From Clostridia bacterium (GTDB lineage: Bacteria; Bacillota; Clostridia; Christensenellales; Aristaeellaceae): 64,000 bases of DNA. Location of the stretch: contig JAFSOC010000010.1 of the NCBI GenBank assembly GCA_017447185.1, positions 1 through 64,000 of the forward strand, written 5' to 3'. The number at the start of each line of letters is the position of its first letter. Position 1 is the first letter of the stretch. Below are positions 3,725-13,074 of this stretch, one piece after another. The translations under genes and the position numbers were made by a program. The notes under the pieces are model-generated. The model saw only the letters and a list, made by a program, of their open reading frames with translations, ran no database searches and was not told the DNA's origin.

Positions 3725-4099
3725 TTATTTCCTGATGTGTTTCACAACATTAATGGCGAATCCCGACGGGGACACCATGAATTGGGATTTGGAAGAACTG
3801 GTTTCAACCTGCTGCCCGGAATTGCCGTTCACAAATCCGTGTTTCTCAAGGAGGGCTACGGCTTCTTCAAGATCATCCACATTCATCCGGATGATCGTCA
3901 TATCCTTGTGAAGAACCTGCGACTGGGTAATGTCCACATGGAAGCCGTTGGGGTCTTTCATCCGGACAGCCGTGTAATTAAGATCATTGTTTACGGAGTC
4001 CTTGCTGTGCGTCTTTTCAAAGCCAAGTTCCTCAAACAATTTGGTGGCAGAAGCCGCGTCGGCGGAAACGATGAGTGGATTGAAGCTGGTGATCTTCAT
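3725..4099 (-). CDS. VOC family (glyoxalase-fold) protein
   Basis: A 124-residue protein with the beta-alpha-beta-beta-beta repeats of the vicinal oxygen chelate superfamily (ITSFNPLIVSADAASATKLFEELGF; MKDPNGFHVDITQ; MTIIRMNVDDLEEAVALLEKHGF). The specific reaction cannot be told; some members bind metals or drugs and some are non-catalytic. A paralogue with the same opening lies at 38019-38396, about 34 kb away. The ATG follows AAAGGAG. It appears to be a single-gene unit. Confidence 0.8.
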   Translation of the reverse strand: MKITSFNPLIVSADAASATKLFEELGFEKTHSKDSVNNDLNYTAVRMKDPNGFHVDITQSQVLHKDMTIIRMNVDDLEEAVALLEKHGFVNGNSGQQVETSSSKSQFMVSPSGFAINVVKHIRK

Positions 4100-4211: not shown

Positions 4212-4240
4212 TTGTGTGCCGGTCCGACACGTATTATGAT
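4212..4240 (+). promoter_or_regulatory. Candidate promoter of the ATP-grasp/MATE operon
   Basis: TTGTGT (4212-4217), 17-bp spacer, TATGAT (4235-4240), 30 bp before the likely ATG at 4271. The match is moderate. Confidence 0.45.
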
Positions 4241-4270
4241 TATCCTATCTCAGCAAGGGGGAATCCAGTC

Positions 4271-5956
4271 ATGCGCAATATCATCATCGTCGAAGCCGCA
4301 TCTACCGGATACAACTATATTGAGGACGTGGTCCGGAGGGGATACAATCCGGTCGTCCTGGAAGTGCGGACAGACAGTGAGGATCTCAAAAAGTTCCGTG
4401 AGGATGCCTACGCCGCCGCCTGGCACAAGCCGGACATCATCCGGGAATGCGGCACCTACGAAGAGACCCTTGAAGCGGTCCGGAAATACGATCCTGTACT
4501 GATCGTTCCGGGCAGTGAAGACGGAGTCACGCTCAGCGTGAAACTCTCCGCCTCCCTTGGGCTTCCCGGAAATCCCGTCGATATGCTCGATGCCATGAAG
4601 ACAAAGGACGGAATGCAGGAGGCGCTGAAGCAGGCCGGAATCCGCTATATCCTCGGCAAAAGGGTGCGTACGCCTGAAGAAGGTCTTGCCTTCTGCCGGG
4701 AGAACAAACTGAAGACCGCTGTGGTAAAGCCGATTTCCGGTGCGGGAAGCCAGGGACTTTACCTGTGCGACAATCTGGATGAAGTGGAGCGCGCGATTGC
4801 CAGCCTGGTAAACACCAAAAATTTCTTCGGCAAAGTGAACGAGGAAGTGCTGGTGCAGGAAAGAATCTATGGCGATGAATATATCGTCAATACGATCAGC
4901 TCCTGCGGAAGACACCGGCTGAATTCCGTTCTGCGCTACAAAAAGCATAAAACTGAAGAGGGCGGATATATTTACGATTACATCGAGTTCATCAACCATC
5001 TGGATGCCGGCCACAACAAACTGATTGAATACGCGCTCAGTGTGGCGGACGCCATCCATTACCGGAACGGCATGATTCACGGCGAATACATGATTGACGA
5101 AAAGGGCCCGGTGCTGATCGAAGTCAACTGCCGTCCCATGGGCTGCAGCCAGCCTGCGGAATATATGGACCTGATCATGGGGCAGCACGAAACGGACAGC
5201 ACGCTGGACGCGCTGCTCTATCCGGAAGCTTTTGCGGCCAGGCAGAATCAGCCTTACAGGCTGCAGCGGTATGGGTGCATGAAGATCCTGCAGATTCCGG
5301 AGGATATGGATGCGGTGGACCACCCGATCTGGGAAGTGGCCCGGCAGCTGAGGAGTACATACAAGATCAGCGCCAATGCACCGTCCTCCCCTTTCACCTA
5401 TGCCAAAACAAGGGACCTGGAAACAGCCGGCGGCCTGGTCTATATGGTTCATAAATACGAGCATGTGCTGAGAAGCGATCTGGAACTCCTGCGGAAAACA
5501 GAGAAATATTACTTCCAGTTCCTGCTGAACGACGGAAAATCCAGGAGATGGTTCCTGGACGGAAACATGGGTAAGCCGGATTTCCCGGCCCTGATGAAGG
5601 AATACAACTGCACGGGGGCCGTGCTTGTTGCGGCGGACGAGCAGCTGGAGATTCCCGGTGCGCAGTGTGTAACGGCCGGAAACATGGAAAACGCCCATAA
5701 AGGTTTTGACTGTGTGATTATCGGATTCCAGCATACCCTGCTGGAGCTCAATGAATCCGCGTGCCTGAAGCTGATCTTCACCGCCATGGACCTGGTCCGC
5801 CAGGGAGGAAAGGTGATCATTCCGAAGAACACTTACCGCTATCTTTCCTACGAGCGTGAAGGTGCGGAAGACCTGATGCTGATCAAGGGACTTACGCTGG
5901 AAGCGCCGCAGCCGGGCAAAACAGAAGTTGTGACAGGAACAAACGAGCGGCAGTAA
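4271..5956 (+). CDS. ATP-grasp ligase with extra C-terminal domain
   Basis: A 561-residue protein from the ATG at 4271 (RBS AAGGGGG); the frame is open 19 codons upstream but without an RBS. Residues 1-100 form a pre-ATP-grasp fold (MRNIIIVEAASTGYNYI). The ATP-grasp core follows (VVKPISGAGSQG phosphate loop; VLVQERIYGDEY; HGEYMIDEKGPVLIEVNCRPMG for Mg/ATP). This resembles L-amino-acid ligases (BacD, carnosine synthase), which form peptide bonds through acyl phosphates. Beyond about residue 410 lies an unassigned segment whose end (ALMKEYNCTGAVLVAAD; VIIGFQHTLLELNE; VRQGGKVIIP) looks like part of a Rossmann or methyltransferase-type fold. A MATE exporter starts 42 bp downstream, so ligase and exporter probably make and secrete a small peptide-like product, possibly with the convergent NRPS operon. 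Confidence 0.75.
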   Translation: MRNIIIVEAASTGYNYIEDVVRRGYNPVVLEVRTDSEDLKKFREDAYAAAWHKPDIIRECGTYEETLEAVRKYDPVLIVPGSEDGVTLSVKLSASLGLPGNPVDMLDAMKTKDGMQEALKQAGIRYILGKRVRTPEEGLAFCRENKLKTAVVKPISGAGSQGLYLCDNLDEVERAIASLVNTKNFFGKVNEEVLVQERIYGDEYIVNTISSCGRHRLNSVLRYKKHKTEEGGYIYDYIEFINHLDAGHNKLIEYALSVADAIHYRNGMIHGEYMIDEKGPVLIEVNCRPMGCSQPAEYMDLIMGQHETDSTLDALLYPEAFAARQNQPYRLQRYGCMKILQIPEDMDAVDHPIWEVARQLRSTYKISANAPSSPFTYAKTRDLETAGGLVYMVHKYEHVLRSDLELLRKTEKYYFQFLLNDGKSRRWFLDGNMGKPDFPALMKEYNCTGAVLVAADEQLEIPGAQCVTAGNMENAHKGFDCVIIGFQHTLLELNESACLKLIFTAMDLVRQGGKVIIPKNTYRYLSYEREGAEDLMLIKGLTLEAPQPGKTEVVTGTNERQ

Positions 5957-5998
5957 CAGCGAACGGCAGAAAACCACCGGAACGGAGAATGGCATGGA

Positions 5999-7756
5999 AT
6001 GAGCACAGCGGTAAATGCGGACAGGGAATTCCGCCGGACCAACAAAATTCTCAGAAATAAATTTACCAGATATCTGTTTCCAATGTTTGTTACCATGGCT
6101 GCCCTTTCCCTGAATGAATTTGTGGACAGCATGCTGGTTTCACGGCTGCTGGGAAGCGAGGGAATGGCAACCGTGAACCTCGGTTTTCCCGTGATGCTGA
6201 TCATGTCCGTGCTCTACACCCTGTTTGGCGCCGGCGGAGCGACGGTATATGCCGTTTCCCTGGGGGAAAGGAACCGGGAAAAAGCGGGAAAGAGCTTTTC
6301 CTGTGCCATGTTTATGGCGGTCTGCACCGGTATCGGATTGCTTCTGATCTGCACCGCCTTCTTTGGTCCCCTTTCCGGCCTTCTCTGCGCGGATATGGAA
6401 ATGCGGCCCGATTTTGAGCACTATTTCCGTGTGCTCACCTTCTCGGCGCCGCTGCTTGTAACCGTACTGACCCTGACGCAGTTCCTTCCGGCTGCCGGCC
6501 TTCCCGGCTACACAACTGCAGTGAACGTTGTGGCGAACGCAGTCAACATCGTCATGGACTATGTGTATATCAAATTTTGCGGAATGGGCGTGGAAGGCGC
6601 GGCATGGGCGACATTGACCGGTTATGCCTGCGGAGTCCTGGTGATCGTCTGGGCACTGATACGGAAGAAGCTCAAAATGTGCGTCTCCGGGAAGATCCGG
6701 GCTTCCTTCAGCACCCTCCCGGAAATCATCCGGCAGGGCGGAGCGGATGTCATGTCCCAGGGCGGTTTCGCGATCCAGATCGCGGTTTGCAACGGAATCG
6801 CCGCTTCCCGTGCCGGAGCCTTCGGTGTCCAGGCTTACGCGCTTTGCATACAGGCCCTGTCCGTTATCTCGGTTTTCCATGGGGCGCTGATCGGCGCATA
6901 TACTCCCATGATAGCGCTGCTTCACGGACAGCGCGATTACCGTGGTGAAGGGAACATGCTGAAACTGGTATTGAAGCTGGGAACCATCGTCGGACTGGTC
7001 GTCTGCGGCGCCTTTTTGATTTTTGCCCGGCCGGCCGCCGCGCTGTATAACATTACGGGGCCGGCAGAGTCGTCCCTGGCGGTGCACGCGCTCAGAATCT
7101 TCTCGATCTGCCTGTTCCTTCGCGGAACCATTATTCTCTACTTCCGGTATCTGAAGGTGATCGGCAGGACAGGCTATGCAATTTTCACAGGCGCACTGGA
7201 CGGTTTCCTGGGCGTAATCCCTGTTGTGCTGATCCTGACACAGTTCATTGGCGTGAACGGGATCTGGTATGGCTATGCGCTGAACGCAGCCCTGGCCCTG
7301 GTTTTCGTGGCTGTCTGTAACCTTATCATCGCCCGCCGCTCCAGGGGAAAACTCCACAGCGTCCTGCTGCTGGAAAAGGAAACAGAGCATGAGATCCTGC
7401 TGGATGCGACCATCACGAAAGACCAGGCGGATATCGCGGGCATCAGTGAGAAGCTGCAGAAGATCTGTGAGGCGAACGGCATAGACCATAAAGACGCCGC
7501 ACGGATCGGCCTAGCGGTCGAAGAGATGGCGGTATTCGCTGCAAACACGAAAACGCAAAGCTCCTTTATGGACATCCTGGTCTGGCGGAGCGAAGGAAAT
7601 ATTGAGATTGATTTCAGAAGCCTCGGAGAGAAAATTGATACAATGGAAAAGATCAGCGAGGCGAAAGAACCGAACCTCGCGCTGCTCCGTGGCATATCGA
7701 AAAGCGTTACAACCGAATATGCCATGGGGATGAATCTTTCCCACATCACTATATGA
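5999..7756 (+). CDS. MATE family exporter fused to an RsbW/SpoIIAB-like ATPase fold
   Basis: 585 residues. The first ~455 form a MATE/MOP-flippase transporter with about 12 hydrophobic helices (start region MFVTMAALSLNEFVDSMLVS is typical) that would export a solute in exchange for cations. The final ~130 residues are soluble and align by pattern with the HATPase domain of anti-sigma kinases (GLAVEEMAVFAANT; then IEIDFRSLGEKID). The N-box asparagine and G1-box aspartate seen in the homologue at 32355-34100 are not conserved, so ATP binding is doubtful. It is co-directional with the ATP-grasp gene and its 3' end overlaps the convergent NRPS gene by 8 bp. Confidence 0.82.
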   Translation: MSTAVNADREFRRTNKILRNKFTRYLFPMFVTMAALSLNEFVDSMLVSRLLGSEGMATVNLGFPVMLIMSVLYTLFGAGGATVYAVSLGERNREKAGKSFSCAMFMAVCTGIGLLLICTAFFGPLSGLLCADMEMRPDFEHYFRVLTFSAPLLVTVLTLTQFLPAAGLPGYTTAVNVVANAVNIVMDYVYIKFCGMGVEGAAWATLTGYACGVLVIVWALIRKKLKMCVSGKIRASFSTLPEIIRQGGADVMSQGGFAIQIAVCNGIAASRAGAFGVQAYALCIQALSVISVFHGALIGAYTPMIALLHGQRDYRGEGNMLKLVLKLGTIVGLVVCGAFLIFARPAAALYNITGPAESSLAVHALRIFSICLFLRGTIILYFRYLKVIGRTGYAIFTGALDGFLGVIPVVLILTQFIGVNGIWYGYALNAALALVFVAVCNLIIARRSRGKLHSVLLLEKETEHEILLDATITKDQADIAGISEKLQKICEANGIDHKDAARIGLAVEEMAVFAANTKTQSSFMDILVWRSEGNIEIDFRSLGEKIDTMEKISEAKEPNLALLRGISKSVTTEYAMGMNLSHITI

Positions 7757-10724
7757 CCCCGCTTTGAACGCTTCCTCCCGGATCCTCCGGAGCAGTAACA
7801 CAGCATCCCGGAGTTTCGCGCCTCCTGATTTCCTCCGACAGAGCGGCTGCCCGGTCAAGTATGGCCCGCATCATTTCTTCGGATATAAAATCCGGATCGT
7901 AATTGATCTGCACTGTTATCATCGTATCTTTTTCGATATAGCAGCAAATGTCAATATGCGGAATCGCTCTGCGGGCGCTTTTCTCCACCGGAGCAGTTTC
8001 GCCGGATACAGCGTATAAAATGAAATCCTCATTCTCACCGATCAGCTCCAGGCAGTTAAAGCTCACGTACGGAAACGGGGATTCATTTTTGCCCAGGATT
8101 CTGTAGTTAACGTCATGCTGGGGCGCGCTGTTTTCCATGGCGCGGAGCACATCCCTGCCGATGTGTTCAAAAAAACGCTCATCCCTGCTGAACGGAATCA
8201 TGATGCGATACGGGAAAAAGCCGGCGGAGCCGAGATATTCCGCGTCATTCCTTCCGCCGAAAACGTAAAACACCGCCAGATCCTCCAGACCCGTTACCTC
8301 CAGGCAGGCCTCACAGAGCAGGCCGAACATGTAGTCTCCGGTCTGGAGACGATATTTCGAGACAACAGGCTCCAGGGTTTCCATCCCGAAACGGGCTGTC
8401 ATATACGCATAGGAACGTACGGACGGCGGCTCCTTTCTGAGGGTTTTTGTGTAAAGCTCCGGCATGGCCGATGGCTTTTCCGCTTCAGCCTTCCATATCT
8501 TCTGTGTGTATTCAAAGTAGTCCGCATCTTCACGTATCCTGTATGCGGGATCCGGAAGGCTGCGTCGGATGTGCGTAATCAGCTTTTCTATAAATACATG
8601 ATCCATGAGGATGTGATGGATCCGCAGCAGGACGGTCACGGTTTCCGCCTTGAAGATCCTGATGTCAAACAGCCGCTCGGCGGTTCCGATGTCATACGGC
8701 TTGAAGAACGCCGCCTCATCTTCCTCCGAGGGAGCCCTGCCGAAGATCTCAATATCCTCTTCCCTGAGTCTTCTCTCCGGATGCGGTATCTGATACCACA
8801 CATCTTCCTGTTTTCGAAAGCATGTAAAAAGGTACGGAAAGGAATTGAACACCCTGACCAGGACAGCCCTGATCCCAGCGCCGTCCGTCCAGCGGTCCGT
8901 GAATTCGATTTCCCGGTACATGTTCGCTATCGGGCTTTGGTAAACAAACTGGTACTGCTGAGGCGTCAGCGGATATCTGTCAAGCCTTTCAGCCGGCGGA
9001 ACTTCGTTCCTCCCGCTTTCCCTGATCTTTTCCGCCAGCTTCCTGACGGTGACCTCTCCCGACAGGAAATCCGTCAGCTTCAGCTGCGCATGCATCTGGC
9101 TCAGGACCAGCGAAGCCAGTTCCGTAGATAGCAGCGAGGTGAAGCCGGCCTCCGCAAGGGGCGTTGTGACGCCGAACCCGTCGAAGGATACGATGCTTTT
9201 GCACCAGGACAGCAGCGTTTCCTCCGTCTCATCGGCCGGCGGGACAATGGGATGCTCATCGTCCCGGATTTCAGGAAGCATGCTGTAATCGAGTTTTCCG
9301 CCGGCATTGATCGGAAAACACTCCAGGTAACAATAACGGTCCGGGACCATATAGCCCGGCAGCCGGTGGGAAAGATAAGCCCGCAGCTCCTTTTCCTCCG
9401 CAGGCCCCTCACCGGTATAGTAAACCGCCAGATGCTGCGTACGGCGGATCTCGCAGACTTTTGCCGCGGCATAATCGATCTTTACGCCCGGGAATCCTCT
9501 GATGAGCGTTTCGATCTCTCCCGGTTCAATACGAAGTCCGCGCAGCTTGATCATCCGGTCCGCCCTTCCGACAATCTCATAACTGCCGTCGGAAAACCTT
9601 CTGGCATAATCTCCCGTACGGAAATACTTAACCCCGTCGATCACGACCGTCTTTTTCGCCGTCTCCTCCGGAAGGTTGAGATAGCCCATCATCATGTTTT
9701 CGCCGGCCATCAGGAGCTCCCCGGTTTCGCCGTCTCCCGTTTCGCGCCCCTCTTCATCCGCCACGAGGAGTTTCCAGCCCCGGTTTGGGAAGCTGTGGCC
9801 CGGCCGGTCAAGGATTTCCTTCGAAAGGAGCGTGCCGTTGGATTCCGTCTGGCTGTACAGGTTGTAGACGCGGCATGCCTTGGCATGGGCGCGGACTGTC
9901 TCCGCAATATCGGCAGGCAGCATCTCTCCCCCCAGGCCTACAAGGCGCACCTGTCTCAGGGCCTGCGCATAGGCGGGGACCTTCAGGAACTGCAGGAGGA
10001 CGGAAGGCGTCAAAGCTACAACATCCACCCCGTATTTATCCATGAGCCCGGCCATCAGCACAGGATTCCGGGATTGCTCCGCGTCCGCCATGATATAGGT
10101 GCACGCGGTGCTGAGCACCATGCAGTATTCAATATAGAAGAAAGAAAAGGTATGCCATGCGACGCCCAGGAAGGTATTCCCGTACTGTTGCAGGGCCCAG
10201 GCTCCCAGGTTCTCTCTGCAGGGGGATAGGGTAGCGATGAATCCCCTGTGCCTGAGGATCGCTCCCTTCGGCGCTCCGGTCGATCCGGAGGTATAGAGAA
10301 TCATGCACGGCGCGCTTCCGTCAATCCGGGGACGCTCCGGCTCGGAGTCTTCGGATTCCGATAGGATCTCCCCGAAGGCTGTTCTCCCTTCCTTCACCTC
10401 TGTACCGATCCGGAGGGCAGGCTTCAGATCGCTCTGCATCTTCCTGACCCGTTCCTCCGGGTAATCAGGGCCGACGGGTACGTACACCGCTCCGATCTTC
10501 ATGATCCCCAGCATTGCCACGATCGGCATGGCGTTTTTTGGGAGCGCCGCCATCACACGGTCTCCCTCCCGGATGCCGCGGCGTCTGAGGCCATTCGCAA
10601 ACCGGTTGACCGTCCGGTTCAGCTGTTCATAGGTATAGGAGACATCCGCTGCGATCACAGCCGGCCGGCTGCCGTGCTCCGCTGCATTTCGGATCAGAAA
10701 ATCTGAATAAAGGATTACATCCAT
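7749..10724 (-). CDS. Single-module NRPS (adenylation - carrier - condensation)
   Basis: 991 residues from the ATG at 10722-10724 (RBS AAAGGGAC). The adenylation domain spans about 1-490 (A3 LYTSGSTGAPKG at 144-154; A5 near YSQTESNG; A7/A8 YFRTGDYARR and RADRMIKLRGLRIE; A10 lysine K477). A carrier domain at 500-570 has the phosphopantetheine serine S530 in GFTSLL. A condensation domain at 580-960 has the HHxxxD motif as HHILMDH (703-709). The order A-PCP-C puts the condensation domain last, so it would pass the loaded unit to an acceptor made elsewhere. The A4 region (WHTFSFF) lacks the usual FD that holds an alpha-amino group, which suggests a non-standard acid. Third gene of the peptide operon, 41 bp after the glycosyltransferase. 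Confidence 0.88.
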   Translation of the reverse strand: MDVILYSDFLIRNAAEHGSRPAVIAADVSYTYEQLNRTVNRFANGLRRRGIREGDRVMAALPKNAMPIVAMLGIMKIGAVYVPVGPDYPEERVRKMQSDLKPALRIGTEVKEGRTAFGEILSESEDSEPERPRIDGSAPCMILYTSGSTGAPKGAILRHRGFIATLSPCRENLGAWALQQYGNTFLGVAWHTFSFFYIEYCMVLSTACTYIMADAEQSRNPVLMAGLMDKYGVDVVALTPSVLLQFLKVPAYAQALRQVRLVGLGGEMLPADIAETVRAHAKACRVYNLYSQTESNGTLLSKEILDRPGHSFPNRGWKLLVADEEGRETGDGETGELLMAGENMMMGYLNLPEETAKKTVVIDGVKYFRTGDYARRFSDGSYEIVGRADRMIKLRGLRIEPGEIETLIRGFPGVKIDYAAAKVCEIRRTQHLAVYYTGEGPAEEKELRAYLSHRLPGYMVPDRYCYLECFPINAGGKLDYSMLPEIRDDEHPIVPPADETEETLLSWCKSIVSFDGFGVTTPLAEAGFTSLLSTELASLVLSQMHAQLKLTDFLSGEVTVRKLAEKIRESGRNEVPPAERLDRYPLTPQQYQFVYQSPIANMYREIEFTDRWTDGAGIRAVLVRVFNSFPYLFTCFRKQEDVWYQIPHPERRLREEDIEIFGRAPSEEDEAAFFKPYDIGTAERLFDIRIFKAETVTVLLRIHHILMDHVFIEKLITHIRRSLPDPAYRIREDADYFEYTQKIWKAEAEKPSAMPELYTKTLRKEPPSVRSYAYMTARFGMETLEPVVSKYRLQTGDYMFGLLCEACLEVTGLEDLAVFYVFGGRNDAEYLGSAGFFPYRIMIPFSRDERFFEHIGRDVLRAMENSAPQHDVNYRILGKNESPFPYVSFNCLELIGENEDFILYAVSGETAPVEKSARRAIPHIDICCYIEKDTMITVQINYDPDFISEEMMRAILDRAAALSEEIRRRETPGCCVTAPEDPGGSVQSGVI

Positions 10725-10765
10725 TTCGCTTGTCCCTTTCGACTTTTGATGCGCGGGAAAACCGG

Positions 10766-12748
10766 CTAATGGTTCAGGATGGAAAACAACAAGGCATCCA
10801 GTTCCCTGATTGCAGGGAAGCTGCCGGCCGCCAGTTTTTCCCTTATACCGGTGAAAAGCGCTGTCAGCTGCTGCCGCTCCTTCCTGTTCCATACAGGCAG
10901 CTCATCCTCCGGAAGAAGCTGTCCCAGCAGCAGCTCATCCTCCCTTCCCAGGCTGACGCCGCTCATGCGAAGCGAATCACAGCGGATGCGGTTGTAGATC
11001 CCGGCCCGCTCCGCCGGATCCGTCAGGCGGGATCTTTCGGATATCTGACCGTCATGAACGCGGTACCGGTGGTGGATATCCGCAAGGCATGAGATCGCGC
11101 CCAGCTTGGACGCTTCCATAAAGAAGCGGTAGTCCTGCATGACGAAATAATCTTCCCGGTATGACAAACGGTTGTCCACCATAAACGACTTGCGGATCAT
11201 CGTGGAAGAATTGCAGAACTCCAGGTTCTCCAGCAGCAGTTTTGCCTGAAAATGCTCCGGTGATCCGGGGATTGCGGCGGAACGGGCGATGACTTTTCCT
11301 TCCCGTTCGATCCCCTGGGACGACGTCCCGAGGATCATGATCTCCCGGTTGTTTTCAAGAAAAGTCAGCTGTGCCTCCAGCCGATCCGGAAGCGAGACGT
11401 CATCTGCACCCATCAGGGCGATATATTCCCCCCGGCTTTCAGTGACGGCCATGTTCGCCGCCGCGGAGATTCCCGGACGACGCTCATTTTTCAGCAGGCG
11501 GATCCTCGGGTCCGAAAAGCCCCGGATCACATCACAGCCCGCATCCGTGGAACCGTCATCCACGATAATCAGTTCGAGGTTCCGCCAGGATTGCTCCAGG
11601 ATCGACGAAACGGCTTCGGCAAGAAACTCCTCCGCATTCCGGACAGGCATGATTACGCTTACCAGCGGATGCCTTTCCGGAGGGAGCGGAGGCGAAAAAT
11701 AGCGTTCCCGGTTGATCCGCCAGGCCCTGCCTTCCGGCCAGGCCCTGCCCGCCCTGCTGTTCCATGCTTCCGATTCTTCCGTTTTCCCTTCGTCATAGGC
11801 AAGGGCACACAGCTTCAGGCAGGGGAGGTAGTTGTCATATCCGGTAAACTCCAGCATAAATTTTGTGATGTCCGGGGGAATCCCTGTGGCCTTCCGGTAC
11901 TGTCTTTGCGCTTCCCCGGCTTCTCCCAGGCCTTCGGCAGCCAGACCCAGCTGATAGCAGAGGAAAGCGGAAAGCGGTACTCCGTACCGGTCAACCGAGA
12001 TGCTGATCAGCTGCCGGCACTTTTCGTATTCCTTCTGCCTGAGAAGCATCTCCGTCATAAACACCAGCGCATACTGGACCTGGGCGGCAGGAGGATCCGT
12101 CATCAGAAAGTCATGCCACGCTTCCGGCGCCCGGGGATCATCCCGGAGGGCCAGCTCACGGCAGTAATAGGAGCGCATATAGGATCCGGACAGCCTGCCG
12201 GAATCCCTTACCTTGTCAAAGATCTGCATGTTCCTTTCCGGCTCATTGATATATTCCTTTTTGTGGATAATCGTGATCTCCGGACAGAGCATGATGTTCC
12301 AGGTGCTGTCGATCCTGATGGCTTCGTGGATATCTCCCTCCCACCGGCAGGCAAGTTCACGCCGGTGTATCCTGTCCCGAAGACCGAGATCCGTCAGGAA
12401 TCCGTAATTACGGTAGGTCATGAACACCGCGTCCGTCTCAGGAGTCAGCCGGTCCCTGAGTTCAAGCAACTTCCGGATCCCGTCCGGATCCGGAACATCA
12501 TCGGCGTCAAGCCACATCACATGATCGCATCCGGCTTTCGACGCGGCAAAATTACGAGCCCTGGCAAAGCTGTTCTGCCAGGGCTCGCTGAAAACAAGGT
12601 CTGTGTATTCTCGGGCGATCTCTGTGCTTCTGTCTGTCGATCCGGTATCCACGACGATCAGCTCATCCGCGAACTGCACGGCAGCGGACAAACATCGCCC
12701 CAGAACACGCTCTTCATTTTTGACGATTAAACAAACGCTGAGGCTCAT
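10766..12748 (-). CDS. Double GT2 glycosyltransferase with TPR-like linker
   Basis: 660 residues. The first GT-A domain (1-~200) begins SVCLIVKNEERVLGRCL and has the metal-binding DADD at 81-84 plus a WEGDIHEAI segment, as in TPR-linked GT2 enzymes such as the glycocin transferase SunS. A helical TPR-like middle (about 200-340) follows, then a second GT2 domain starting PLVSVIMPVRNAEEFL with VDDGSTD and MGADD motifs (about 350-600). It would transfer sugar from a nucleotide sugar to a protein or peptide acceptor. The start codon overlaps the stop codon of the repeat peptide by one base and has no RBS of its own, so translation is probably coupled. The peptide is the natural candidate acceptor (inference). 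Confidence 0.83.
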   Translation of the reverse strand: MSLSVCLIVKNEERVLGRCLSAAVQFADELIVVDTGSTDRSTEIAREYTDLVFSEPWQNSFARARNFAASKAGCDHVMWLDADDVPDPDGIRKLLELRDRLTPETDAVFMTYRNYGFLTDLGLRDRIHRRELACRWEGDIHEAIRIDSTWNIMLCPEITIIHKKEYINEPERNMQIFDKVRDSGRLSGSYMRSYYCRELALRDDPRAPEAWHDFLMTDPPAAQVQYALVFMTEMLLRQKEYEKCRQLISISVDRYGVPLSAFLCYQLGLAAEGLGEAGEAQRQYRKATGIPPDITKFMLEFTGYDNYLPCLKLCALAYDEGKTEESEAWNSRAGRAWPEGRAWRINRERYFSPPLPPERHPLVSVIMPVRNAEEFLAEAVSSILEQSWRNLELIIVDDGSTDAGCDVIRGFSDPRIRLLKNERRPGISAAANMAVTESRGEYIALMGADDVSLPDRLEAQLTFLENNREIMILGTSSQGIEREGKVIARSAAIPGSPEHFQAKLLLENLEFCNSSTMIRKSFMVDNRLSYREDYFVMQDYRFFMEASKLGAISCLADIHHRYRVHDGQISERSRLTDPAERAGIYNRIRCDSLRMSGVSLGREDELLLGQLLPEDELPVWNRKERQQLTALFTGIREKLAAGSFPAIRELDALLFSILNH

Positions 12749-12972
12749 CAGTCACGGTCCGAAACGTTGATATTGGCCGAGTTGAGCCTGACTTTTTTGT
12801 TGTCTGGAATATCACCGTCCGAAACGTTGATATTGGCTGAGTTGAACCTGACTTTTTTTTCGCTTGGTTGATCTGGCGTATCTAACTCTTTTCCGGCGGA
12901 AACTTCCTGCATTTGGGTATCAGTCAGATCCTCCGCGTCCAACGGCCTTCCGGTTTCTTTTTTATTACTCAT
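12748..12972 (-). CDS. Repeat-core precursor-like peptide (candidate RiPP/glycopeptide precursor)
   Basis: 74 residues, no signal peptide, no cysteine. Residues 1-27 resemble a RiPP leader, ending EDLTDTQMQEVSAGK, close to the LSDxELxxVSGG style of leaders cut after a double-Gly-like site. The rest carries two near-identical units, KKVRFNSANINVSDGD (39-54) and KKVRLNSANINVSDRD (59-74), period 20. Each unit has Ser and Asn acceptors, including an N-V-S sequon. It is the first gene of the operon with its own strong promoter and RBS (AAAGGAG), and is followed by a coupled glycosyltransferase and an NRPS. I do not recognise a described family. Alternatively it could be a small regulatory protein. 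Confidence 0.7.
   Translation of the reverse strand: MSNKKETGRPLDAEDLTDTQMQEVSAGKELDTPDQPSEKKVRFNSANINVSDGDIPDNKKVRLNSANINVSDRD
12752..12858 (-). repeat. Two 47-bp tandem repeats, period 60, encoding the peptide cores
   Basis: Units at 12752-12798 and 12812-12858 differ at only three positions. The 60-bp period equals 20 codons and creates the duplicated core of the small peptide. DNA identity this high suggests a recent duplication or conversion. Confidence 0.9.
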
Positions 12973-13044
12973 TGCAAAAAAACTCCTTTCATGTCCGGCC
13001 GTAAATAACGGTTTGTCGGAATATTTTATTGTACATTCAAGCGT

Positions 13045-13074
13045 AATATATCACTGCAGAGGTTTTCCTGTCAA
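13045..13074 (-). promoter_or_regulatory. Promoter of the peptide-GT-NRPS operon
   Basis: On the minus strand: -35 TTGACA (13069-13074), 18-bp spacer, -10 TATATT (13045-13050). The predicted leader is about 65 nt to the ATG at 12972. Confidence 0.7.

Follow-up and report, generated by a model that had tools for sequence, protein, structure and literature searches.

The window (the whole stretch of DNA analysed, 64,000 nucleotides) carries three genes on its minus strand in the order precursor peptide (74 aa, 12748..12972), double-GT2 glycosyltransferase (GT; 660 aa, 10766..12748) and A-PCP-C NRPS-like protein (991 aa, 7749..10724). The TGA of the peptide gene and the ATG of the GT gene have one base in common, AAAGGAG stands ahead of the peptide ATG, and the A-PCP-C ATG at 10724 lies 41 bp past the GT stop with AAAGGGACA ahead of it. 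A first-pass annotation of this DNA had described this gene order, including the overlapping ATG and the 41-bp spacing, and the open reading frames confirmed it. It had also proposed one promoter, which corresponds to a single promoter-like site, TTGACA-18-TATATT (13045..13074, minus strand), identified by consensus match only. Read from 13074 to 13045, this site agrees with the consensus at 11 of 12 positions and has TG ahead of the second hexamer, but it is only suggestive because shuffled sequences gave a mean of 0.6 such sites against the one found here. Together, the peptide, GT and A-PCP-C genes form one apparent transcription unit.

The end of the A-PCP-C ORF (7749) overlaps a convergent MATE gene by 8 bp. 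This gene belongs to a plus-strand pair (4214-7756) in which an ATP-grasp gene is followed after 42 bp by the gene for a MATE transporter whose C-terminal part weakly matches HATPase_c_2. Kinship between the ATP-grasp protein and the GT was not supported, and neither was kinship for the tail domains of the transporter. The pair, convergent on the NRPS-like gene, may be a separate ligase/exporter unit.

We scanned genome contigs with the GT and recovered seven related loci (L014-L020) in six MAGs named Clostridiales, Lachnospiraceae or Oscillospiraceae, so that the set with the window comprises eight loci from seven genomes. The MAGs come from RUG and RUI isolates, which we take to be a rumen series. 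Just upstream of the GT, seven of the eight loci have a small ORF of the same kind, preceded by a GGAG-like sequence. Its spacing to the first possible GT start runs from an overlap of one base up to a gap of 39 bp; stop and start overlap at two loci. The remaining locus is L018, where an RPLD-type peptide was not found upstream of the GT and where the GT also lacks its N-terminal part. A peptide unlinked or absent in related loci, an outcome that had been named as speaking against the original reading, was thus seen at L018 and not at the other seven. The precursor profile gave no match with a significant E-value elsewhere in these genomes. Both the window (3725-4099, minus strand) and L018 (6083-6463) encode a small protein within a few kb of the system; the two are 48% identical, a likeness given no weight as evidence here. 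At L016, a 3.7-kb contig, a group II intron maturase-specific domain (1-549) lies upstream of the precursor, and an opposite-strand ORF with an LPKTG-type tail lies beyond the GT.

Alignment of the seven precursors showed invariant columns for M, R, P, L, D and E, for the G at the leader end and for one Asn; the motif RPLDxE is invariant and the core is variable. In the window, the leader covers residues 1-27 (12892..12972), contains RPLD at 12937-12948 and ends in AG, where the other six precursors have GG, with the cleavage site predicted to follow. The core contains two 16-residue repeats, KKVRFNSANINVSDGD (12811..12858) and KKVRLNSANINVSDRD (12751..12798), which had been noted on first inspection and are real, with 14 of 16 residues identical; in the DNA they appear as two 56-nt copies, 88% identical and 60 nt apart.

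A finer period runs through the cores. Pairs of Asn five residues apart numbered 19 across the seven cores against 7.5 in shuffles (none of 2000 shuffles had as many), and pairs at lag 11 numbered 11 against 6.1 (42 of 2000 shuffles); within lags 1-12 there was no excess at any other lag. Asn follows directly after F, I, L, V, M or Y in 31 of 48 cases, where 11.5 were expected and none of 5000 shuffles had as many. These shuffles kept composition but took no account of how the peptides are related, and for L017 counting began two residues after the GG. The five-residue unit is plainest in the L016 core (FNASY FNTSS FNASN FNTAD FNTAK FNT) and can be read in the window as VRFNS ANINV and VRLNS ANINV. 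Superimposed on this five-residue period, the 16-residue repeats represent a local duplication.

Model searches placed the peptide in no named family. Among the seven precursors, pentapeptide Pfam models matched only that of L016 (PF13599, E 0.002, 18.6 bits where the cut-off is 38) and none of the other six. The window peptide had no NCBIfam match at E 10, with no curated Nif11 or NHLP leader model reaching its cut-off, and among the six other precursors only L016 gave one (NF038167, 21.2 bits against a cut-off of 32). The precursor profile had a single chance-level match (E 1.4) in the PDB set. Membership in a known regulator or other named family, which the first-pass annotation had listed as counting against its reading, found no support; the candidate match, to PP1_inhibitor (E 0.023), was below cut-off and was rejected. 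A conserved leader and a variable repeat core beside a putative modifying enzyme at seven of the eight GT loci bear out the earlier description of a RiPP-like precursor, and we consider it very likely that the 74-aa peptide is a real exported precursor.

The GT has two GT2 stretches. The N-terminal domain (approximately residues 1-105, 12434..12748, with DADD at 12497-12508) is assigned from profile matches to solved structures, the best being GmaR (E 1.9e-24, profile 8-102), followed by SunS (E 3.9e-14 and 1.1e-13, profile 7 to 252-255) and then by 7msk, which is annotated only as GT2-like and which we take to be ThuS. The C-terminal domain (approximately residues 361-590, 10979..11668, with GADD at 11399-11410) is assigned from Pfam and profile matches, with chondroitin synthase (E 2.2e-28) and SpsA as the best solved matches. 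The protein had been called a double GT2 and GT2-TPR; the double GT2 assignment stands, whereas the TPR between the two domains (TPR_8, E 0.0086) is below the Pfam cut-off. The SunS-family model TIGR04195 scored 43.6 bits against a cut-off of 350. A structure model of the GT (pLDDT 51) was unusable.

Five of the eight GTs (window and L014-L017) are whole and are 63-85% identical to each other, and three are broken in the assemblies: L018 begins approximately 100 residues late, L019 is in pieces, and L020 was read over 163 aa with a large internal gap. The genome holding L020 also holds the whole GT of L017. The N-domain DADD is kept at all seven loci having that part. The second motif varies among loci as GADD, DADD, DDDD, GASD and DASD, the window form, GADD, having Gly in place of the first acidic residue. 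Given the position of the GT next to the peptide and the homology of its N-domain, we think it probable that the GT modifies the precursor.

The NRPS-like protein has a clear Pfam match to AMP-binding (E 2e-67), while PP-binding (19.9 bits against a cut-off of 20.8) and Condensation (27.7 against 30.6 bits) are below their cut-offs. The earlier A-PCP-C call is clear for the A domain and tentative for the PCP and C domains, for which motif residues are present: the carrier Ser530 in AGFTSL (9135..9137) and HHILMDH at residues 703-709 (8598..8618). Proteins of the same type occur at L020 and in a further genome (G094, locus L058); these two had no C-domain match at E 0.001, and searching the PDB set with a C-domain profile brought up no C domain. 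The carrier Ser and the second His of the C motif are kept in all three proteins, the motif being HHxxxDH in two and QHxxxDH in one.

In A domains the Asp of the FD motif holds the alpha-amino group of the substrate. An ungapped stretch against DltA (3e7w) places Ser194 (10143..10145) at this position in the window, and Thr and Ile stand there in L020 and L058, respectively. The window protein thus does not have the residue expected of an amino-acid-activating A domain and looks suited to an acid lacking an alpha-amino group, in line with the NRPS-activated acid proposed at first. Condensation proteins of fatty-acid-amide pathways in gut Clostridia are described as departing from HHxxxDG at its first and last places and as acting on free amines (PMC13142362). 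Because the Asp is replaced in the A domain and the C motif, HHxxxDH, departs from HHxxxDG as it does in these pathways, the sequences suggest that the protein would pass an acid without an alpha-amino group to a free amine, for which an amino sugar or a lysine could be the acceptor.

The check that had been proposed for the three-gene order, a search across related genomes, showed that the order is not conserved as a unit. An A-PCP-C gene follows the GT at two of the eight loci, the window and L020; the two proteins are 73% identical, and the window and L020 GTs are 79% identical over 163 aligned residues, the highest of the values for L020. Elsewhere, L014 has a further GT2 gene and an NTP-transferase/HAD gene beside the GT, L015 has an NTP-transferase/HAD gene, and L017 has a further GT2 gene; no obvious partner was found at L016, L018 and L019, and at L016 and L017 the contig stops no more than about 1 kb past the GT. 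Since seven of eight loci have the peptide and two have the A-PCP-C gene, the peptide and GT look like the core of the system and the A-PCP-C gene like an optional, exchangeable third gene. The A-PCP-C protein in G094 is 46% identical, and an RPLD peptide was not found in the 16-kb L058 stretch. The A-PCP-C gene there is followed by a fusion (L058, 1321-4059) in which a GT2 domain precedes GH3 domains. An A-PCP-C gene thus stands beside a GT2 protein in all three places: the window, L020 (with its broken GT) and L058 (the GT2-GH3 fusion).

The system is rare and patchy. At E 1e-60 the GT profile matched 4 of the 308 genomes of the family, a count from which distant members may be missing because only about three candidates were scored per genome, and the NRPS profile matched 2 of 308 at E 1e-120 (two candidates scored per genome). 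One of the four GT-profile genomes (G258, L024) was set aside; its tandem GT2 pair is of another kind, and a look for an RPLD peptide across the 4,080 bp of the locus found none. With the single window peptide as query, 13 of the 250 genomes searched in the family had a match at E 1, and only its own genome had one below 0.03. At E 0.01 the peptide profile had matches in 4 of the 396 genomes from the order, and three of these, when inspected, seem to be unrelated: part of a 2056-aa frame, an ORF with a GG leader and a different tail, and a GG ORF that we labelled Nif11-like. The same profile found 1 of 145 relatives of G311, the genome that holds L020, namely G311 itself, and 1 of 398 phylum genomes at E 0.001, the window genome itself. 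A virus origin was considered and rejected, since 103 pattern matches in IMG/VR contigs yielded no confirmed GT relative; a plasmid origin was likewise dropped, with no GT relative in plasmids at E 1e-40.

No exporter gene lies in the window operon. Leaders of the double-glycine type (GG in six of seven, AG in the window) go together with C39-peptidase exporter genes in all seven genomes searched, and the window genome (88.66% complete) has one such exporter, above the TIGR03796 (NHLP) cut-off and with a TIGR03797 partner. Export of the window peptide in trans, by an exporter encoded elsewhere, is plausible from these gene contents. A lanthipeptide-type cluster neighbours L020 on its contig (L061, C382, 3-7515, same strand). 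It encodes a LanM and a RiPP radical SAM C-methyltransferase, both above cut-off, along with a Nif11-like precursor scoring 29.7 bits, below its cut-off of 32.3, a protein that partly matches NHLP HlyD, and an NHLP C39 exporter of which only the start precedes the contig end. The window genome (L028, at G000:C1:7015) and two others (L040 and L037) also encode double-glycine-leader ORFs with different, longer tails, possibly other cargo of the same exporters.

We propose that the 74-aa precursor is made and that its RPLD/double-glycine-type leader guides the GT. By homology, the GmaR/SunS-like N-domain would put a sugar on the Ser/Thr (or Asn) of five-residue units of the form x-x-[F/I/L/V]-N-[S/T/A/V], and the second GT2 domain, which in the window has Gly for the first acidic residue of its motif, may extend this sugar. 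The A-PCP-C protein would activate an acid lacking an alpha-amino group and load it on Ser530, from which the terminal C domain would transfer it to a free amine of the glycopeptide; the sugar is the most likely site and the Lys before each repeat the alternative. This activation and transfer is the least certain step. An NHLP-type C39-peptidase ABC exporter encoded elsewhere, a gene for which is present, would then remove the leader and export the product. That the operon yields a secreted, Cys-free glycopeptide of RiPP type, acylated in this strain, falls a little short of an even chance in our judgement; the same holds for the A-PCP-C protein acylating the product of the peptide and GT, and for the scheme as a whole this is the most that we would allow. 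Of the scheme first put forward, a RiPP-like peptide linked to an enzyme resembling peptide glycosyltransferases is supported, as is activation of an acid by an A domain that does not look made for ordinary alpha-amino acids; the three-gene order as a unit is not.

The fullest version of this scheme holds that the A-PCP-C protein joins an acid other than an amino acid to a ribosomal peptide that already carries sugar. The result would be a hybrid belonging to a new family of Asn-pentapeptide glycopeptide RiPPs, in which the third gene is swapped between NRPS-like and NTP-transferase/HAD types; we regard this as possible but doubtful. The peptide and GT could also form a glycopeptide system with which an A-PCP-C protein making an independent small acyl amide is only co-transcribed. 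The A-PCP-C gene is found at only two of the eight GT loci, L058 has it in the absence of a precursor, and the best-known A/ACP/C analogues, as far as the text consulted describes them, make free fatty-acid amides (PMC13142362), but the 41-bp spacing within one apparent transcription unit, the same order at L020 and the GT2 protein alongside in three of three places make such independence unlikely. A different placement of the acyl group, on the Lys before each repeat rather than on the sugar, would resemble lipidated RiPPs of the selidamide kind. For these, fatty acyl groups are described on the side chains of Lys or (hydroxy)ornithine (PMC9505594). Both NRPS loci have Lys-Val before Asn units (twice in the window, once in L020) and the five other cores have none. 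This comparison sets two related loci against five, however, the L016 and L019 cores also contain Lys, and core Lys would not be a general acceptor because L058 has no peptide; we consider this placement rather improbable.

The remaining alternative concerns the target of the GT, which might be another protein, such as a surface or flagellar one; the peptide would then be a secreted signal or a bacteriocin with no tie to the GT. Flagellin is the target of GmaR, which matches the N-domain best, and these genomes encode further double-glycine-leader ORFs whose tails differ. Against this, the peptide is directly upstream of the GT at seven of eight loci, with stop and start overlapping at two, and its profile has no significant match elsewhere in the same genomes, so we hold this reading to be very unlikely. 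Returning to acylation of a glycosylated peptide, if it is true, a small self-contained operon joins ribosomal and NRPS-type chemistry on one peptide, peptide glycosyltransferases gain a repeat core free of Cys and an enzyme with two domains, and the loci with differing third genes become a natural series for testing the decoration of peptide sugars.

In the titles and abstract openings of open-licence PMC literature, the combination of peptide, GT and A-PCP-C was not found among the matches listed, and the literature search found no paper treating GmaR and SunS together. The glycocins (sublancin, glycocin F and their SunS-type GTs) are like the window system in having a short leader precursor with an adjoining SunS-like GT2 and, in most cases, export through a C39 peptidase. 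They differ in lacking the Asn-repeat core, the second GT2 domain and the NRPS-like gene, and no exporter was seen beside the window genes. Five of the seven cores, the window's included, contain no Cys, and L014 and L015 contain one each; glycocin membership was ruled out because the window core has no Cys for nested disulfides. OaaA, OaaACP and OaaC of gut Clostridia share adenylation, carrier and condensation functions with the window protein, as well as a C motif departing from HHxxxDG and an acid apparently without an alpha-amino group (PMC13142362). The likeness is one of functions and motif; unlike the Oaa pathway, the window has a single protein whose gene shares an operon with the peptide and GT genes. 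Selidamides match the proposed scheme in having a ribosomal precursor, export thought to be of the NHLP type and acylation, but they are acylated by a GNAT enzyme, and the passages of PMC9505594 on these compounds name no A-PCP-C protein. The type A flagellin glycan genes of C. difficile (cd0240-cd0244), going by the sections of PMC10714395 on these genes, resemble L014 and L015 in combining a GT with sugar-decorating nucleotidyltransferase and phosphatase-like proteins. There the target is flagellin and the proteins are separate, whereas L014 and L015 have an NTP-transferase/HAD fusion, and the window differs again in having an NRPS-like gene instead of the nucleotidyltransferase and phosphatase-like genes.
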